Below are positions 2,423 through 9,733 of a stretch of DNA of 64,000 nucleotides, one piece after another. This stretch comes from Acidimicrobiaceae bacterium. Lineage in GTDB: Bacteria; Actinomycetota; Acidimicrobiia; Acidimicrobiales; RAAP-2. The notes under the pieces were generated by a model. That model saw only the letters and a list, made by a program, of their open reading frames with translations. It ran no database searches and was not told the DNA's origin. Made by a program: the position numbers and the translations under genes. The stretch is taken from contig PMTF01000009.1 of NCBI GenBank assembly GCA_003167415.1, positions 62,001 to 126,000 on the forward strand. The letters run 5' to 3'. How positions within the stretch are numbered: the first letter of the stretch is position 1; the number at the start of each line of letters is the position of its first letter.

Positions 2423-2851
2423 TCATAGCGTCCCTTTCTCTTCGGATGTGGACATAAGAAGTTCGGCGAGCAGATTTCGAACGCGCCGTTCAACGTCGTC
2501 GCGGATCTGACGAACTTGATCGACAGTCTTACCGGCCGGATCAACGAGGTCCCAATCCAAATACCGCTTGCCCGGGTAAACCGGACACGCGTCGCCACAG
2601 CCCATCGTGACAATGACGTCGGCGTTCAGACCCATGTCGTCGGTCAACTTGCGAGGTGCTTCGTTGGAGATGTCAATGCTCTTTTCTTTCATCACTTCGA
2701 CGACCGCCGGATTCAGTTTTTCGCCGGGTGCCGAGCCGGCGGAGTGGACAACGACTTGACTTCCTCCCAGCGCGCGGGCGAATGCCGCCGCCATCTGGGA
2801 CCTCCCGGCGTTGTGCACGCATAGGAAGAGGATTTCGGGACGCTCGGTCAT
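2423..2851 (-). CDS. arsC: Arsenate reductase, low-molecular-weight phosphatase fold
   Basis: Reduces arsenate to arsenite in the cytoplasm so that the neighbouring Acr3 can export it. The P-loop CVHNAGRS begins at the nucleophile Cys11, and further cysteines occur in MGCGDAC (Cys85 and Cys89), followed by the DW-DLVDP acid region. The length of 142 residues fits the family. Whether the electron donor is thioredoxin or mycothiol is not settled: extra cysteines favour a thioredoxin-type shuttle, while actinobacterial relatives often use mycothiol. The start ATG overlaps the acr3 stop by 4 bases (ATGA), so this is the last gene of an arsI-acr3-arsC operon. Confidence 0.92.
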   Translation of the reverse strand: MTERPEILFLCVHNAGRSQMAAAFARALGGSQVVVHSAGSAPGEKLNPAVVEVMKEKSIDISNEAPRKLTDDMGLNADVIVTMGCGDACPVYPGKRYLDWDLVDPAGKTVDQVRQIRDDVERRVRNLLAELLMSTSEEKGTL

Positions 2852-3954
2852 CGAACTCTTTCAGTGGTGACGGTGTCATAGAAACGACGCTTCGCCCACA
2901 ACGAAACGTAGACCAGAGCGACCAGCACCGGCACCTCGATGAGTGGGCCGACCACTCCAGCGAGGGCTTCGCCACTGGTCACCCCGAATACGCCGATGCA
3001 CACTGCGATCGCCAACTCGAAATTGTTGCCGGCAGCGGTGAAGGCGAGCGTGGCGGTTCGGTCATAGGGAAGCCCGAGCGCCCGGCCGAGGGCGAATGAC
3101 CCGAACCACATGATGGCGAAGTAACAGAGCAAAGGGAGGGCGATGCGAGCGACGTCGCTGGGCCGAGAGGTGATGGTGTGTCCCTGCAGAGCGAAGAGGA
3201 TGACGATGGTATAGAGAAGACCGTAGAGAGCGAAGGGGCCAAGGCGAGGCAACAGCCTGGTCTCGTACCACTCTCGACTGCGAAGGCGTTCGCCAATCGT
3301 TCGCGTGAGGTAACCGGCGAGGAGCGGTATCCCGAGAAATATGGCCACGGTCTCGGCGATCTTCCACACCGATAGATGAAGACCCTGCGTGCTCAGCCCG
3401 AGCCATTTGGGAAGAAGTTCCAGATAAAAATATCCGAGCAACGAAAACGCCACGATTTGGAATAGTGAGTTGAGCGCCACGAGCACCGCCGCCGCTTCGC
3501 GATTGCCTCCCGAAAGATCGTTCCAGATCAGCACCATCGCGATGCAGCGCGCCAAGCCCACGATGATGAGCCCAGTCCGATAGGTGGGCAGATCGGGCAG
3601 CAAGAGCCAGGCGAGAGTGAACATGACCACCGGTCCAATGAGCCAATTAAGGACGAGCGACGCAACCAACAGCCTGCGGTCACGGGTAACGGTGCCGAGT
3701 CGGTCGTAGCGCACTTTGGCCAACACGGGATACATCATTACGAGGAGTCCAATGAAGATGGGCAACGACGTTCCCGACGTGACCTGCACGGCGTTGAGGT
3801 GCGTGTTGAGGCTAGGTATGGCTCGCCCGAGGCCGATGCCAACTGCCATCGCCAAGACGATCCACACCGGCAAGAACCGGTCGAGAAAGGAAAGTCGTTT
3901 GATGACCGGGGCGTCCGCGCTCCCCTGGGACAACTCTGAGACGGTGTCGCTCAT
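2848..3954 (-). CDS. acr3: Arsenite efflux permease, Acr3 family
   Basis: A polytopic carrier of 368 residues with about ten hydrophobic segments that exports arsenite using the proton-motive force. Two hallmarks of the Acr3 family are present: the membrane cysteine in GLARCIAMVLIWNDL, and the AAGNNFELAIAVCIGVFG segment carrying the conserved glutamate. The open frame extends upstream to 4050, but that part is arginine and serine rich. The ATG at 3954 begins the usual hydrophilic N-terminus followed by the first helix (FLPVWIVLAMAVGIGLG). It lies 31 bases after arsI and overlaps arsC, indicating co-transcription from the arsI promoter. Confidence 0.92.
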   Translation of the reverse strand: MSDTVSELSQGSADAPVIKRLSFLDRFLPVWIVLAMAVGIGLGRAIPSLNTHLNAVQVTSGTSLPIFIGLLVMMYPVLAKVRYDRLGTVTRDRRLLVASLVLNWLIGPVVMFTLAWLLLPDLPTYRTGLIIVGLARCIAMVLIWNDLSGGNREAAAVLVALNSLFQIVAFSLLGYFYLELLPKWLGLSTQGLHLSVWKIAETVAIFLGIPLLAGYLTRTIGERLRSREWYETRLLPRLGPFALYGLLYTIVILFALQGHTITSRPSDVARIALPLLCYFAIMWFGSFALGRALGLPYDRTATLAFTAAGNNFELAIAVCIGVFGVTSGEALAGVVGPLIEVPVLVALVYVSLWAKRRFYDTVTTERVR

Positions 3955-3985
3955 GATCGTCTCGGAACTGCGATTCGACTCGGAC

Positions 3986-4432
3986 CTAACAGCACGAGGC
4001 GGCGTCGGACTCCGCGAGTGACTCGCTCGCGCAGCACGTCTGGTCGCCACCTACCGATGAAGAGTCATTCGCGTCGGCCAGCACGGTATAAACCTCCCAC
4101 CGCGAGGAATCTGGACCGTCGACCCACACCTTGTCTTGAACCGCGAAGCAGCACGTCGTCTTTTCCTCGATGTCGGTCATGAATCCCTGTTCGGAGAGGT
4201 ACCGAGTGGCGTCTAACACTTCATCGGTCGTAAATACTTCGACCCCGAGGTGATTGATTGTGCCCGGGTCGCCGGAGTTCTCAAAAAGCACCAACTTGAG
4301 CGGCGGTTCCGTGATGGCAAAGTTGGCGTAGCCGGGAAGCAGTTTCGTCGGTTCCGTCTTGAAGAATTTGGAGTAGAAATCCACCGCCTCATCGAGGTTT
4401 GACACATTCAGAGCGAGTTGCAGTCGGGACAC
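3986..4432 (-). CDS. arsI: ArsI-type C-As lyase / CadI-family vicinal-oxygen-chelate enzyme
   Basis: Resembles ArsI, the Fe(II) dioxygenase that cleaves the carbon-arsenic bond of trivalent organoarsenicals. Counting from the GTG, Gln5, His61 and Glu113 match the metal triad, and the adjacent Cys94-Cys95 in KTTCCFAVQDKVW match the arsenic-binding pair. The frame opens earlier at an ATG (4462), but that start lies inside the operator, whereas GTG 4432 has AAAGGAG seven bases upstream and begins with the family's SRLQLALNV. After the family core ends near VYTVLAD there is an added tail with TCC and a terminal SCC, four extra cysteines. First gene of the ars operon. A CadI-like cadmium role is the main alternative. 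Confidence 0.87.
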   Translation of the reverse strand: MSRLQLALNVSNLDEAVDFYSKFFKTEPTKLLPGYANFAITEPPLKLVLFENSGDPGTINHLGVEVFTTDEVLDATRYLSEQGFMTDIEEKTTCCFAVQDKVWVDGPDSSRWEVYTVLADANDSSSVGGDQTCCASESLAESDAASCC

Positions 4433-4447
4433 CTTGATCTCCTTTAA

Positions 4448-4463
4448 ATTGACATCTGTCAAT
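4448..4463. promoter_or_regulatory. ArsR-type operator, perfect palindrome
   Basis: ATTGACATCTGTCAAT has two perfect 7-base arms around a 2-base centre. It lies between the divergent arsI and arsR genes, right at the expected transcription start of the leftward arsI promoter. TTGACA-N2-TGTCAA palindromes are typical of actinobacterial ArsR/SmtB repressor sites. Confidence 0.75.
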
Positions 4464-4467
4464 GAGA

Positions 4468-4496
4468 AGAGTAGTAGTCGAATTGATGTTTGTCAA
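4468..4496 (-). promoter_or_regulatory. Predicted arsI-acr3-arsC promoter
   Basis: Reading leftward, TTGACA (4496-4491) and TACTCT (4473-4468) are separated by exactly 17 bases. The -35 hexamer is part of the right-hand operator and the start point would fall in the left-hand operator, so a bound ArsR would block polymerase twice. Predicted from sequence only. Confidence 0.55.
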
Positions 4497-4497
4497 T
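4482..4497. promoter_or_regulatory. Second, imperfect ArsR-type operator
   Basis: ATTGATGTTTGTCAAT repeats the left operator with a degenerate left arm. The same distal ATTGA and TGTCAAT bases are kept, and its centre is 34 bases from that of the first site, about three helical turns. It immediately precedes arsR, so it would mediate autoregulation. Confidence 0.6.
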
Positions 4498-4512
4498 AGT
4501 ATGATGAAAGAA

Positions 4513-4857
4513 ATGTCACATCCAAAGACCATCACCATCGACGAGAACGTCGTGAGTTGCTGCAGCCCGCTGACGTCCATTGCACTGTCCGAGGTCGAGG
4601 CTGGCGACATCGCTCAGATTTTTGGAGCCCTCAGCGACCCCGTGCGTTTGCGCATGCTGTCACTCGTCGCTGCCGAAAACGAGGTTTGCAGCTGCGCCTT
4701 GGAAGAGCCGCTGGGTAAGAGCCAACCCACGATCTCGCACCACACAAGGATTCTCGCCGAGGCCGGACTCATCGTCGGCGAAAAACGAGGCCGATGGATG
4801 TGGTGGCGAATTGTGCCGGAGCGACTTGGCGAAGTCTCGAGAATTCTGTCTTCATAA
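4513..4857 (+). CDS. arsR: ArsR/SmtB-family metalloregulator
   Basis: A winged-helix repressor that releases DNA on binding arsenite or another metal. The core FGALSDPVRLRMLSLV, the ENEVCSCAL segment and the recognition helix KSQPTISHHTRIL are typical. The cysteines in EVCSC sit in the helix that forms an As(III) site in one ArsR class, and a further CC pair near the N-terminus could be a third ligand set. In-frame ATGs at 4501 and 4504 are possible. I chose 4513 because GAAAGAA precedes it and 4501 lies only 3 bases after the operator. Divergent from arsI, so it should repress both directions. Confidence 0.88.
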   Translation: MSHPKTITIDENVVSCCSPLTSIALSEVEAGDIAQIFGALSDPVRLRMLSLVAAENEVCSCALEEPLGKSQPTISHHTRILAEAGLIVGEKRGRWMWWRIVPERLGEVSRILSS

Positions 4858-5355: not shown

Positions 5356-5688
5356 TCACAACTGCCGATACCGTGGCACGTAGCCGCCCGCGCCGAGCGA
5401 CATCGAGTCTTCGGGATCGATCGAGTCGTCGACTCCGCCGACCACGTCAGTCACCCACGCCAAACGGTCCTTCAAGATCCGGGTGACGCCACCCTGGAGC
5501 GTGTCCGAAGAGATGGCGCAACTCGAGCACGCGCCCTGCAGCTGCACTTCGACGACTCCGGTCTCGACGTCGCAGCGAATGAGAACTAGGTCACCGCCGT
5601 CGGCCTGCACGGACGGGCGCATCAGGTCCAGAAGCGCGTTCAGCGCTTTGAGTCGCGTGGCGCGCTCTTGGTCGGTCAGTTCTTCCAT
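5356..5688 (-). CDS. NifU-like (Nfu) Fe-S cluster scaffold protein
   Basis: A 110-residue protein made almost entirely of the NifU C-terminal domain. The stretch LDLMRPSVQADGGDLVLI is the domain's first helix-strand, and GACSSCAISSDTLQGGV carries the CxxC that holds a 4Fe-4S cluster at a dimer interface. It would deliver clusters to apo-enzymes in the cytoplasm. The P450 gene is divergent from it, 65 bases away. No SUF or ISC genes are nearby, so it probably acts as a stand-alone carrier. The weakly conserved 25-residue C-terminal tail ends in Tyr/Arg-rich sequence. Confidence 0.88.
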   Translation of the reverse strand: MEELTDQERATRLKALNALLDLMRPSVQADGGDLVLIRCDVETGVVEVQLQGACSSCAISSDTLQGGVTRILKDRLAWVTDVVGGVDDSIDPEDSMSLGAGGYVPRYRQL

Positions 5689-5753: not shown

Positions 5754-7019
5754 ATGGAACCAAATGAGACCTGGGCCGTTGATTCGATCAACCTTACGGA
5801 CATAGAGTTCTGGCGTCGTCCGTGGGGCGAGCGCCACAGCGCCTTCGCCACCTTGCGACATGAACGACCAATCTCGCACTTCGAGGAGCCAGTGATTGAA
5901 GGCACGTCCATCGAGTTCCCTGCGGGCGATGGTTTCTACGCGCTCACGAAGTACCGGGACGTGCAAACGGCGTCTCGCCACCCGGAGGTCTTCCTTTCGG
6001 GCCCCGGAGCGGTATCAACGATGGATCTGCCGAGCGAGATGGTGGAGTACTTTTCAGGCATGATTTCCACGGACGATCCCAAGCACGCGCGACTGCGCCG
6101 AATCGTGTCGAAAGCATTCAATCCCCGAAACGTTCGCGCGGTGGAGGACTCGATCGAGCGCAAGGCCGACGAGATCATCGAACGTTCGCGAACGAGCGGC
6201 ACGGGGGATTTCATTCCCGACATCGCGGCGCCGTTTCCCCTCGAGATCATTTGCGACATGATGGGCGTGCCGCCGAGTGAGTACGCAACGGTGCTGCATC
6301 ACTCGAACATCATCCTTGCCTTCGGCGACCCCGACATCATTCCTGAGGGCCAGGACCCCGTATTGATGTTGCTCGAGTCGGGCGCCGCACTAACGGCGAT
6401 CATGGAGGACTTGGGGAAATACCGGATCGACAACCCCATCGATGACATCACGAGTGCGCTGGTGAACGCCGAGATCGAAACGGAGAAACTGACGCAACAG
6501 GAGTTGGCCTCATTCTTCGTGCTGCTCGTGACGGCCGGTAGCGAGACGACTCGCACGGCCCTCGCTCACGGGCTGCACGCGCTCACCGAACACCCCGATC
6601 AAAAAGCCCGACTCCTGGCCGACTACGAGGGTCTCGCCAAGACCGCTACCGACGAGATCGTGCGTTGGGCTTCACCAGTTATCTGGATGCGCCGCACACT
6701 CGCGCAGGACTATACCCTTTCGGACTTCGATCTGGTAAAGGGCGACAAGGTCCTTCTGTACTACCTTTCGGCGAATCGCGATGAAGACGTCTTTGAGAAC
6801 CCCGATGTCTTCGACGTTGGACGCACGCCCAATGATCACTACGGATTCGGCGCGCCCGGCCCACACTTTTGTCTCGGGGCGCACCTCGCGCGACGCGAGA
6901 TCACGGTGATGATTCGAGAGTTACTTCGTCGAAACCCCGATATCCACTCGACGGGAACGCCGTCACAGTTGGCGTCCAGTTTTCTCAACGGTGTCAAACA
7001 CCTTGCCTACAGCCTCTAG
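5754..7019 (+). CDS. Cytochrome P450 (421 aa)
   Basis: A soluble class I bacterial P450. The I-helix oxygen-binding motif AGSETT, the K-helix ExxR in DEIVRWASP, and the heme loop FGAPGPHFCLG with the thiolate cysteine are all present. N-terminal and I-helix style resemble the CYP124/CYP125/CYP142 group, which hydroxylates sterol or branched isoprenoid chains, but the subfamily cannot be fixed by eye. The frame is open from 5703. The ATG at 5754 is preferred because earlier residues overlap the divergent promoter region. It is followed after 21 bases by a cis-prenyltransferase homologue, suggesting an isoprenoid substrate. No ferredoxin partner is adjacent. Confidence 0.93.
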   Translation: MEPNETWAVDSINLTDIEFWRRPWGERHSAFATLRHERPISHFEEPVIEGTSIEFPAGDGFYALTKYRDVQTASRHPEVFLSGPGAVSTMDLPSEMVEYFSGMISTDDPKHARLRRIVSKAFNPRNVRAVEDSIERKADEIIERSRTSGTGDFIPDIAAPFPLEIICDMMGVPPSEYATVLHHSNIILAFGDPDIIPEGQDPVLMLLESGAALTAIMEDLGKYRIDNPIDDITSALVNAEIETEKLTQQELASFFVLLVTAGSETTRTALAHGLHALTEHPDQKARLLADYEGLAKTATDEIVRWASPVIWMRRTLAQDYTLSDFDLVKGDKVLLYYLSANRDEDVFENPDVFDVGRTPNDHYGFGAPGPHFCLGAHLARREITVMIRELLRRNPDIHSTGTPSQLASSFLNGVKHLAYSL

Positions 7020-7040
7020 GCGTGGCTGAGAGCGCTCGCA

Positions 7041-7700
7041 ATGGCAAACTCTAAGCGACTTCCTCAACACGTGGGCATCATTCCCGACGGCAATCGCCGA
7101 TGGGCTCAAGACCAAGGTTTTGAAAAACAGGACGGCTATCACTTCGGACTACAGCCGGGTCTCGAGTTGTACAGCGAGTGCCTGGCGTTAGGTATCCCCG
7201 AGATCACCTTCTACGGCTTCACCGTCGACAATACGAAACGTCCTGGAGCTCAGATTGAAGCATTTCGCGATGCGTGCGTGGAAGCCGTGGCCGAGTTGGA
7301 GAACAGGGACGCGGATCTGCTGGTGGTGGGCAACACCGAGTCGGCGTTCTTTCCCAAAGAACTCTTGCGCTACACGCAACGGACCCGAATCGGCCAGGGC
7401 CGCATCAAAGTCAACTTCCTCGTGAACTACGGCTGGAACTGGGACCTTAACCACTCGCTCAAGGACGGTAATGCGAGTAAGGGCTATAACGTTGCCGACG
7501 GCATCGCCTCCGCCGAAATTTCAAGGATCGATCTCATCGTGCGCTGGGGCGGTGGTCGGCGACTCAGTGGCTTCTTACCCATTCAGTCGATCTACGCCGA
7601 CTTTTACGTGGTCGATGAACTGTGGCCAGACTTTACACTTGCCCAGTTCCACGAAGCACTGGCCTGGTACCAAGATCAAGACGTCACGCTCGGTGGCTAG
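7041..7700 (+). CDS. Short, atypical cis-prenyltransferase (UppS-like, 219 aa)
   Basis: Homologous to undecaprenyl diphosphate synthase. HVGIIPDGNRRWA keeps the catalytic Asp, and VDLLV-type core, VNYGWNWDL and YADFYVVDELWPDF match the fold. It is shorter than usual (219 against about 240-250). Several conserved positions differ: MDGNGRW is PDGNRRW, FSSEN is FTVDN, and RTGGEHRIS is RWGGGRRLS, losing the glutamate after GG. A housekeeping role in cell-wall lipid carrier synthesis is therefore doubtful. A short-chain or irregular isoprenoid product is more likely. It follows the P450 by 21 bases with only a weak GAGAG ribosome site, so the two are probably translated from one message. Confidence 0.8.
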   Translation: MANSKRLPQHVGIIPDGNRRWAQDQGFEKQDGYHFGLQPGLELYSECLALGIPEITFYGFTVDNTKRPGAQIEAFRDACVEAVAELENRDADLLVVGNTESAFFPKELLRYTQRTRIGQGRIKVNFLVNYGWNWDLNHSLKDGNASKGYNVADGIASAEISRIDLIVRWGGGRRLSGFLPIQSIYADFYVVDELWPDFTLAQFHEALAWYQDQDVTLGG

Positions 7701-7937: not shown

Positions 7938-8288
7938 CTAAACCTTTCTCGCGGCCGCCGCTTCGTCGTAGGCGTGAAGGGCCCTCGGACCCCACACGGT
8001 TCCCGGGCCGCCGTTCAACGCGATAGCCACGCCGATGGCTTCGGCGATCTGTTGGCGGGTGGCGCCCTCGCGCAGCGCACCGCGAGTGTGGGCGACGATG
8101 CAGCCGTCGCATTCGCGAGTGATCGATATGACCATGGCGAGGAGCTCTTTGGTCAATCGAGAGAGCTCGCCTTCGGTTTGTGCGGCTTGAGAAAGAGCGC
8201 CGAAACTCTTCATCACGTCGGGAATCAACTCTCGCAGATCCTGGGCGGGCTGACGCAACTCTTCACGAATATCATCCATACTGTTCAT
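7938..8288 (-). CDS. Carboxymuconolactone decarboxylase / AhpD-like protein
   Basis: A small all-helical protein of 116 residues with the AhpD-type active site CDGCIVAHTRGALREGA. This is a CxxC with a histidine three residues later, preceded by an acidic residue. Such proteins act as thiol-dependent peroxidases or peroxidase adaptors, or as decarboxylases. The CxxC favours the redox role. The start ATG at 8288 is firm, with GGAGGT five bases upstream. It is alone on its strand between the cis-prenyltransferase (convergent) and the CDF-like gene 161 bases upstream, so it is likely a single-gene unit. Confidence 0.87.
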   Translation of the reverse strand: MNSMDDIREELRQPAQDLRELIPDVMKSFGALSQAAQTEGELSRLTKELLAMVISITRECDGCIVAHTRGALREGATRQQIAEAIGVAIALNGGPGTVWGPRALHAYDEAAAARKV

Positions 8289-8449: not shown

Positions 8450-9037
8450 TCAATGTTTGAGTGACCCACGGGCCTCTCGAAGGGCGTAATAGACAATCAC
8501 GTAGCCCGTCACTGGATCGGCCCACCACCACCCGGCGAAGGCATTCAATACGAGGCCGAAGAGCACTGCCGTGGCGAGGATTCCATCGATCATCGTGACG
8601 CGACCCTCGGCCTTCAATACGGGGTTGTCCAGGGCGGTTCCAATTCGGGCTTTTCCTGAAGCGAGTGCGAACATGGCGACGGCGGTTATGGCAGTCCAGA
8701 CGATACCGATTGAACTGTGATGGGGCCGAAAGCCAACTACGAGGACGAAAGTGCTCTGCGCACCTAAGTAGATGGCCAATGCCACAAAAGCGGACCCGAT
8801 CATCCGCAGTGCCTTGATTTGTCGGGCTTGGGCGATGTCAGCGAGTTCCCAGAGTACGACCACTGACGCACCAATCTCAATCACGCTGTCCAAGCCGAAA
8901 CCCGCCAGAGCCACTGACTTGGCTTCAAGAGCGGCGTAGGCGAGAATGAACACCCCCACCACGTTCCAACCAAGCGTGATCACCTCAAGTTGGCGTCCAC
9001 GACGCAGTGCGAGTGCGCCAACGTCGTCGGGTTGCAT
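8450..9037 (-). CDS. CDF-like cation transporter, membrane domain only (195 aa)
   Basis: A membrane protein with about five to six hydrophobic segments and the GFGLDSVIEI motif seen in a short actinobacterial branch of the cation diffusion facilitator family. The C-terminal cytoplasmic metal-sensing domain of full CDF proteins is absent: the chain stops after WADPVTGYVIVYYALREA. The Asp/Glu of LDSVIE and the Asp of MIDGILA are candidate metal ligands in place of the usual HxxxD pairs. The ATG at 9037 was chosen; GTGs at 9043 and 9049 are alternatives. The much longer frame to 9721 is only an extension across the promoter and the divergent carbonic anhydrase. Confidence 0.78.
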   Translation of the reverse strand: MQPDDVGALALRRGRQLEVITLGWNVVGVFILAYAALEAKSVALAGFGLDSVIEIGASVVVLWELADIAQARQIKALRMIGSAFVALAIYLGAQSTFVLVVGFRPHHSSIGIVWTAITAVAMFALASGKARIGTALDNPVLKAEGRVTMIDGILATAVLFGLVLNAFAGWWWADPVTGYVIVYYALREARGSLKH

Positions 9038-9061
9038 GGTCACTTGCACAATGTAATTCGT

Positions 9062-9094
9062 TCGAATTCGAATTCGACGTGACCAATTCGAATT
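9062..9094. promoter_or_regulatory. Two AATTCGAATT palindromes upstream of the CDF-like gene
   Basis: A perfect 16-base palindrome, TCGAATTCGAATTCGA, occupies 9062-9077. A second, AATTCGAATT, is at 9085-9094. They lie 25 to 57 bases before the predicted CDF-like start and inside the region shared with the divergent carbonic anhydrase. The AT-rich repeated boxes look like a repressor operator, but no regulator gene is adjacent. Confidence 0.45.
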
Positions 9095-9232
9095 AATTGC
9101 GTAGTGACGCGTTTCCAGAATCAACGTGATACGAGTGAATCCACGACGCCGAGACAACACTTCGCACGAGACGATGTCGGGTTCCAATGAATGGTGGACC
9201 TCGTACCCCATCATGTTTCCTAGGATTGTCCG

Positions 9233-9733
9233 ATGAGCGTCATCGATGATCTCGTCGCCCACAACCGTGCCTACGTGGAACGTCACGGCCATCGCGAGAT
9301 GCCGACTTCGCCCCAGCTCCATCTGACGGTGTTGACGTGTATGGACTCCCGACTCGACCTCTTCGGCGCCCTCGGGCTCAACCTCGGCGAGGCCCACCTC
9401 ATCCGCAACGCCGGTGGACTGGCGAGCGACGACGCGATACGCTCGCTGCTGCTCAGTCAACGGCTGCTGGGAACCCGAGCCGTGATGGTGATCCACCACA
9501 CGCGCTGCGGCTTGGAGTCCTTCGACGAACAGTCGCTCGCCGACGAGGTCGAAGCCGCCGTCGGTGTCCGACCACCCTTTCGACTGGGCGCCTACCGCGA
9601 CGTCGAAGAGGACGTGCGCTCGACGCTCGAGACGCTGCGGGCCAGTCCCTTCGTGGATTCGACTGAGATCCGCGGCTTCGTGTTCGACGTCGATGACGGC
9701 GACCTGCGCGAGATCAGTCAAAGAACTTCTTGA
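9233..9733 (+). CDS. Beta-class carbonic anhydrase (Rv1284 type)
   Basis: Interconverts carbon dioxide and bicarbonate in the cytoplasm. The zinc site of the beta class is visible: Cys and Asp in TCMDSRLD near residue 36, and His and Cys in VIHHTRCGLESF near residue 90. A length of 166 residues and the N-terminus IDDLVAHNRAYV match the short Mycobacterium Rv1284 branch, not the longer plant-type enzymes. AGGA precedes the ATG by about nine bases. The last 20 bases overlap the convergent acetyltransferase gene. It is divergent from the CDF-like gene. Confidence 0.9.
   Translation: MSVIDDLVAHNRAYVERHGHREMPTSPQLHLTVLTCMDSRLDLFGALGLNLGEAHLIRNAGGLASDDAIRSLLLSQRLLGTRAVMVIHHTRCGLESFDEQSLADEVEAAVGVRPPFRLGAYRDVEEDVRSTLETLRASPFVDSTEIRGFVFDVDDGDLREISQRTS

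Follow-up and report, generated by a model that had tools for sequence, protein, structure and literature searches.

A predicted MA1831/MM_0014-type cis-prenyltransferase beside a cytochrome P450 in an Acidimicrobiaceae bacterium

The enzyme described here is, in our assessment, probably a cis-prenyltransferase of the MA1831/MM_0014 type that the genome has in addition to its housekeeping enzyme, with the chemistry set out in the Discussion and encoded by a solo gene that adjoins a cytochrome P450 gene by accident. It is encoded within a 64,000-nucleotide stretch of DNA from an Acidimicrobiaceae bacterium, which we refer to as the window. Judged by its sequence, the protein (P0001) is a member of the MA1831/MM_0014 subfamily of versatile cis-prenyltransferases; both the subfamily and its unusual chemistry are already known from archaea. 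The gene and the motifs of its product lie in the window as follows.

7041..7700, + strand: cis-prenyltransferase gene, MA1831/MM_0014 type (P0001), 219 aa
7083..7106, + strand: PDGNRRWA motif, residues 15-22, the same in 81 of 81 subfamily rows
7218..7244, + strand: FTVDNTKRP motif, residues 60-68; Thr63 and Asn66 of MM_0014 correspond to its T61 and N64
7542..7571, + strand: RWGGGRRLSG motif, residues 168-177, with Gly at position 172
7686..7697, + strand: C-terminal TLGG in place of RXG, from the alignment of the subfamily

Results

An intact gene in a genome with an ordinary UppS

The enzyme gene starts with ATG and its translated open reading frame is free of internal stops. A Pfam search detected the PF01255 domain in P0001 at 140.5 bits (cut-off, 27), and the UppS model TIGR00055 scored 105.9 bits, just below its curated cut-off of 109.55. 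The P450 frame ends in the stop codon TAG at 7017-7019, leaving a 21-base spacer (7020-7040) before the enzyme gene on the same strand. PF01255, PF00067 and the translation agree with an initial annotation of this DNA, which had described a 219-residue UppS homologue with PDGNRRW, FTVDN and RWGGG motifs 21 bases after a P450.

The genome of the window (2.66 Mb in 29 contigs, 96.6% complete) contains two PF01255 matches: P0001 and an ordinary UppS at C5:89570-90223 (140 versus 275 bits). The latter is encoded on another contig. P0001 is therefore not the sole UppS of the genome, in agreement with the interpretation in the initial annotation. One match to PF00348, the family of trans-type polyprenyl synthases, is present, so an allylic donor for P0001 would be available in principle. 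Searching the genome with the enzyme gene and its 3' flank returned no further copy besides the gene itself, and the conserved 3' flank gave no sign of structured RNA (z-score -0.07).

Placement within the cis-prenyltransferases

The proteins of solved structure that P0001 matched best were MA1831 (310 bits) and MM_0014 (301 bits) of Methanosarcina. E. coli UppS followed at 91 bits, and LPPS, CLDS and isosesquilavandulyl diphosphate synthase scored 54, 49 and 38 bits. Over aligned columns, identity was 60.3% to MA1831 and 57.9% to MM_0014 (214 columns), with values of 30.6% to E. coli UppS (1jp3) and 25.2% to the UppS of the same genome (C5).

We constructed a maximum-likelihood tree of 88 rows, in which P0001, 78 loci, MA1831 and MM_0014 form one clade with 100/100 support. 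This 81-row clade stands apart from UppS, from Rv1086-type enzymes and from Streptomyces cis-geranylfarnesyl diphosphate synthase; the reference branches are long, and the root serves for drawing only. MA1831 and MM_0014 branch together with a clostridial row. The Acidimicrobiaceae rows constitute one group, which also takes in a record titled Acidobacteria and another titled Actinobacteria. The fork holding the window and ten others lacks resolution, and L028 and L036 were left out as incomplete. The initial annotation had proposed a tree with CLDS, LPPS and the housekeeping UppS; ours separates P0001 from housekeeping UppS and joins it to MA1831/MM_0014, while CLDS and isosesquilavandulyl synthase are absent from it and CLDS was compared by bit scores and fold Z.

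An AlphaFold2 model of P0001, built from 40 aligned sequences, reached a pLDDT of 87 and a pTM of 0.85, with the last three residues poor. VIA-align returned Z scores of 31.0-32.4 to ten MM_0014/MA1831 entries and of at most 24.5 to the others among the matches listed; the best structural match was 7cav_F (Z 32.4, rmsd 1.7, 215 residues aligned).

Many genomes of the genus also encode paralogues of approximately 35% identity. We considered these as a second branch of the subfamily and rejected the idea: all four that were read have ordinary RTSGE motifs, and the one searched found Rv1086 as its best match. Rv1086-like short-chain cis-prenyltransferases of this kind (~35% identity; L111, L144, L145 and L146) are common in the genus, some alongside the enzyme gene. 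No Rv1086-like third PF01255 match occurs in the window's genome.

Altered motifs fixed across the subfamily

We aligned the window protein with 80 relatives, the best 80 of 150 loci. P15-W21, F60, T61, D63, N64, R67, R168, W169 and G170 are invariant in all 81 rows. At the positions that we take to be catalytic in UppS, alignment with the E. coli enzyme showed D16, N64, R67, R168, R174 and S176 of P0001 to be identical, and Y33, G172 and D187 to replace His, Glu and Glu, respectively. P0001 ends in QDVTLGG without an RXG motif; the UppS of its own genome has RRFGG. Among the complete rows of this set (the window and the best 80 of 150 loci), 78 of 79 end in TLGG and all 79 in LGG; in the AlphaFold2 model, the TLGG of P0001 has low confidence. 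By this alignment, the altered motifs of P0001 are a fixed signature of the subfamily, and P0001 is not a degenerate UppS.

Position 172 varies: Arg occupies it in 52 of the 81 subfamily rows and Gly in 26, with one Lys, one Met and one gap. The Gly172 rows are the Actinomycetota and Dormibacterota that reach this position, together with the record titled Acidobacteria; MA1831 has Arg. Given Gly172, the acceptor preference of P0001 may differ from that of MA1831.

Distribution and neighborhoods

Scanning genome contigs, we found relatives of P0001 encoded in 150 places and analyzed the best 80 of these. Acidimicrobiaceae sequences come first within this set (76-95% identity), followed by others down to 58% from Clostridia, Carnobacteriaceae, other Actinomycetota, Dormibacterota and a few more. 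Within the genus of the window, 23 of 99 genomes, many of them incomplete, contained the enzyme gene in whole or in part; across the 73 genomes of other genera in a 150-genome sample of the family, a match of this type was found in none. Seven comparisons within the window's group gave dN/dS values of 0.06-0.19 for the enzyme gene, which points clearly to purifying selection there. A literature search, mainly outside subscription papers, returned no assay or study of a bacterial subfamily member among the matches listed.

We compared the gene order of 80 loci, namely that of the window and 79 of the 80 from the scan (L022 had no matching frame), and sought a neighbor common to the family; none occupies a fixed place. 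The widest neighbor cluster covers 17 loci and includes pstB genes (ABC ATPases). A guanylate kinase-like gene is constant in 12 Carnobacteriaceae loci and a CCA-adding-enzyme-like gene recurs in 6 clostridial loci; we take both to be housekeeping genes.

Phage and plasmid records contained no match of at least 60% identity, the top-ranked matches being 35.8% in plasmids and 34.2% in phages. Three loci matched in a collection of viral contigs, and two of these, L169 (3001-3654) and L170 (3001-3627), look like subfamily members at 64 and 55% identity; the viral origin of their contigs is putative. In L036, L028 and L136, the assemblies break inside the enzyme gene, which could stem from near-identical copies in several strains of one sample. 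Separately, a Streptomyces clavuligerus plasmid (L149, 96-6127) carries a cis-geranylfarnesyl diphosphate synthase-like gene near a terpene synthase and a P450, a layout resembling the prenyltransferase/P450 arrangement that the initial annotation had imagined for the window.

The neighboring P450 belongs to a block of its own

The P450 (P0002), whose nearest solved relative is CYP124A1 (~396 bits, residues 11-418), sits in a conserved block with the order NifU - P450 - CMD - carbonic anhydrase - GNAT - amidase - pst. The features of the window that bear on this block are the following.

5356..5688, - strand: NifU-like gene, the left border of the conserved block by gene-order comparison
5754..7019, + strand: cytochrome P450, 421 aa (P0002), PF00067
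7885..7941, + strand: possible remnant of a second P450 copy, from its C-terminal end (SQLLSRFVNGMEPMHYNL, followed by a stop); weak, E 0.01 in a very small set
7938..8288, - strand: carboxymuconolactone decarboxylase family gene (CMD), which adjoins the P450 where the enzyme gene is absent between them

Two further observations concern the surroundings. A long minus-strand frame at 8450-9721 overlaps the carbonic anhydrase gene (9233-9733, + strand), and its true start is probably further in. The genes at 2423-4857, which we take to be an arsenic resistance set, lie between the acyl-CoA dehydrogenase gene and NifU in G000, G090 and G119 and beside NifU in G103, and have no match in G146 or G113.

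We picked 20 stretches from the P450 matches, 7 of them from genomes that carry the enzyme gene or fragments elsewhere and 2 from other genera. In 17 of these, the P450 is followed immediately by CMD and the enzyme gene does not intervene; of the remaining three, one stops at a contig end, another has a broken CMD at a distance of 0.9 kb and the third shows no CMD. P450 matches (E 1e-90 or better) occur in 73 of the 99 genus genomes, namely in 19 of the 23 carriers of the enzyme gene and 54 of the 76 others (Fisher p = 0.42; many genomes are incomplete). Among 82 loci, relatives of P0002 (E 1e-6) were found only in those of the window's own group.

Gene order was counted in 22 carriers, G122 being left out as it holds 3' fragments only; loci were assigned to genomes by contig coordinates. 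The P450 and the enzyme gene stand in tandem on the same strand in six of the 22 (G000, G146, G103, G090, G113 and G119), with a spacer of between 7 and about 213 bases (21 in both the window and L003). The P450s of these genomes are 85-97% identical to that of the window, those of other genomes 80% or less. The tandem therefore looks like a single event in one clade, although the unresolved fork of the enzyme tree falls short of proving it.

In a further five carriers, the gene lies within or beside the block without forming the tandem: between the carbonic anhydrase gene and GNAT in L010 and L014, beside GNAT in L013, between carbonic anhydrase and CMD in L016, and in L020 (5565-7154) between CMD and NifU, the usual place of the P450, on the strand opposite to the one that the P450 would occupy. 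The P450 match of the L020 genome is on another contig. The flanks of the other 11 carriers contain no block gene, six of these carriers having short or one-sided flanks (L009, L011, L012, L018, L028 and L136); gene-order rows below 45% identity (40% in a later table) were dropped, and an amidase-like neighbor of L018 is hence uncounted. In 11 of 22 carriers, then, the enzyme gene lies inside the block or at its border, with at least four different positions among them, an association that could be read as a functional tie of the gene to the block.

Signs of independent gene movement

We computed dS against the window gene by gene (NG86), a measure that saturates near 1 and above. The enzyme gene was not computable in G159, G126 offered no neighbor for comparison, and the gene in G119 is cut by the contig end. 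In G103, G090, G119, G107, G081, G121 and G160, dS was 0.27-0.51 for the enzyme gene and 0.68-2.33 for the P450; G113 gave 0.68 and 1.09. The two genes agree in G146 (0.14 and 0.11). Where the enzyme gene is in or beside the block (G147, G111, G158 and G150), its dS was 0.97-1.42 and that of the P450 1.43-1.73, so the enzyme gene is not generally slow at synonymous sites. Overall, its dS fell below two thirds of the P450's in 8 of the 13 carriers with both values, which suggests separate transfer of the two genes. Against this, other genes in G090 also have low values (pstB, 0.39; acyl-CoA dehydrogenase, 0.52), and in L013, L014, L010 and L016 the dS of the enzyme gene is not much lower than that of other block genes, so that separate transfer rests on the remaining carriers.

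Copies of the enzyme gene at unrelated sites share approximately 20-60 bases on its 5' side and up to ~180 bases on its 3' side. In L004, L005 and L036, pieces of the N-terminus of a second P450 lie between the P450 and the enzyme gene (E between 1e-9 and 1e-13, with very few sequences in the search set), at 5788-5921 in L004, about 5799-5936 in L005 and 5792-5966 in L036. L004 also has a C-terminal P450 piece beyond the enzyme gene (6651-6929), although the first part of this match overlaps the end of the enzyme gene and is doubtful. The C-terminal trace is short and weak in L003 and the window, and L017 has none. The enzyme gene therefore appears to be embedded in what is left of a second, decayed P450 copy.

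Isolated 3' fragments of the enzyme gene, beginning at about residue 154, are present in L135 (1333-1530) and L134 (4223-4402 and 1906-2031). The 3' fragments in the genomes G107 and G122 adjoin the same 286-residue neighbor and look like relics of an enzyme-gene copy at another site. Taken together, the enzyme gene seems to move on its own.

Discussion

The proposed chemistry of P0001 follows that of its characterized relatives. The report on MM_0014 (PMC8131916) describes an enzyme that converts FPP and IPP to C25-40 prenyl diphosphates and FPP and DMAPP to geranyllavandulyl diphosphate, IPP being much the better acceptor. At high concentration it O-prenylates small alcohols, a reaction whose physiological role its authors consider unlikely. 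MM_0014 ends in TLGG and lacks the RXG of other homodimeric enzymes, to which the authors tie its loose choice of acceptor; Thr63 and Asn66 are near the acceptor, and head-to-middle chemistry is common to MM_0014 and the CLDS, LPPS and isosesquilavandulyl synthases. In the same source, the cellular role is stated to be unclear and a carrier-lipid role is left open (PMC8131916).

By homology, P0001 would take an allylic donor, for example FPP or GGPP, bind a second prenyl diphosphate via Mg2+ and join it to the donor. With IPP as acceptor, short Z,E-prenyl diphosphates (C25-40) would result; with DMAPP, a branched diphosphate of the geranyllavandulyl type. The missing RXG arginine would leave the choice of acceptor loose. 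The gene itself would stand alone, being passed between and moved within genomes, and would have come beside the P450 in one clade by accident of position. Homology to these relatives supports a non-standard prenyl diphosphate as the product. The initial annotation had likewise expected an atypical product; that part gains from the nearest characterized relatives, which make short or irregular (head-to-middle) diphosphates, whereas the kinship with CLDS and LPPS that it drew on is not supported, with 49 and 54 bits against 310 for MA1831.

The initial annotation had gone further and read the two genes as a small isoprenoid pathway with a non-standard prenyl diphosphate and an oxidized product. 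In such a pathway, the CYP124-like P450 would hydroxylate the alcohol or lipid derived from a short or irregular prenyl diphosphate that P0001 makes. The same-strand tandem in six genomes and the presence of the enzyme gene in or beside the same block in five further genomes speak for this, but the linkage is not conserved among relatives: the tandem is confined to the 6 of 22 carriers with the P450s nearest that of the window, and among 82 loci relatives of this P450 lay only in those of the window's own group. Because the tandem is restricted to what looks like one clade, the block exists independently of the enzyme gene (CMD directly following the P450 in most of the chosen stretches, including those from genomes with the gene or fragments elsewhere), co-occurrence shows no excess and synonymous divergences mostly differ, such a pathway is not supported, and we judge it improbable. 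A broader reading is also unlikely, if slightly less so. In it, a self-contained single-gene trait that moves horizontally and occurs in Clostridia, Carnobacteriaceae, Acidimicrobiaceae and other bacteria would make an irregular or O-prenyl isoprenoid with its fixed alternative active site, and the window's clade would have recruited the CYP124-like P450 next to the gene to oxidize the product.

Two alternatives concern the enzyme rather than its neighbor. P0001 could be an accessory chain-length variant that supplies ordinary glycosyl carrier lipid with a shorter counterpart to undecaprenyl phosphate. The strong preference of MM_0014 for IPP over DMAPP, its C25-40 products and the role left open by its authors are in keeping with this, but the genome has a housekeeping uppS, occurrence in 23 of 99 genus genomes (many incomplete) suits a dispensable function, and the RXG-less end is fixed across the subfamily; we regard this role as possible, though doubtful. 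A dedicated irregular monoterpene synthase of the CLDS or LPPS type, which short length and altered motifs would fit, is very improbable: bit scores are 38 to 54 against 310 for MA1831, the modeled fold gives structural Z scores of 22-24 to the CLDS-, LPPS- and isosesquilavandulyl-type synthases versus 32 to MM_0014/MA1831, and P0001 aligns Asn (N18) with His78 of LPPS (the position of UppS Asn28), a residue that LPPS needs (PMC7839719).

A solo, second cis-prenyltransferase of the MA1831/MM_0014 type is thus the reading that we prefer. Enzymes of the MM_0014 type with fixed altered motifs occur in many bacteria, mostly without a constant neighbor. The fixed motifs, the spread over many bacteria, the few constant neighbors and the purifying selection in the window's group suggest that the active site, with its loose specificity, is maintained because it serves some purpose; the bacterial carriers are hosts in which to look for the missing isoprenoid. 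The window also illustrates how what looks like a tidy two-gene pathway can be an accident of gene position.

Among known systems, P0001 shares its altered motifs, TLGG end and fold with MM_0014 and MA1831, and differs from them in being bacterial and in having Gly172 where MA1831 has Arg. With housekeeping UppS it has the PF01255 family, the fold and core positions in common, but it lacks RXG and falls below the TIGR00055 cut-off. CLDS, LPPS and isosesquilavandulyl diphosphate synthase have the same fold and match P0001 at only 38-54 bits; CLDS and isosesquilavandulyl synthase keep the RXG (PMC8131916) that is absent from P0001.
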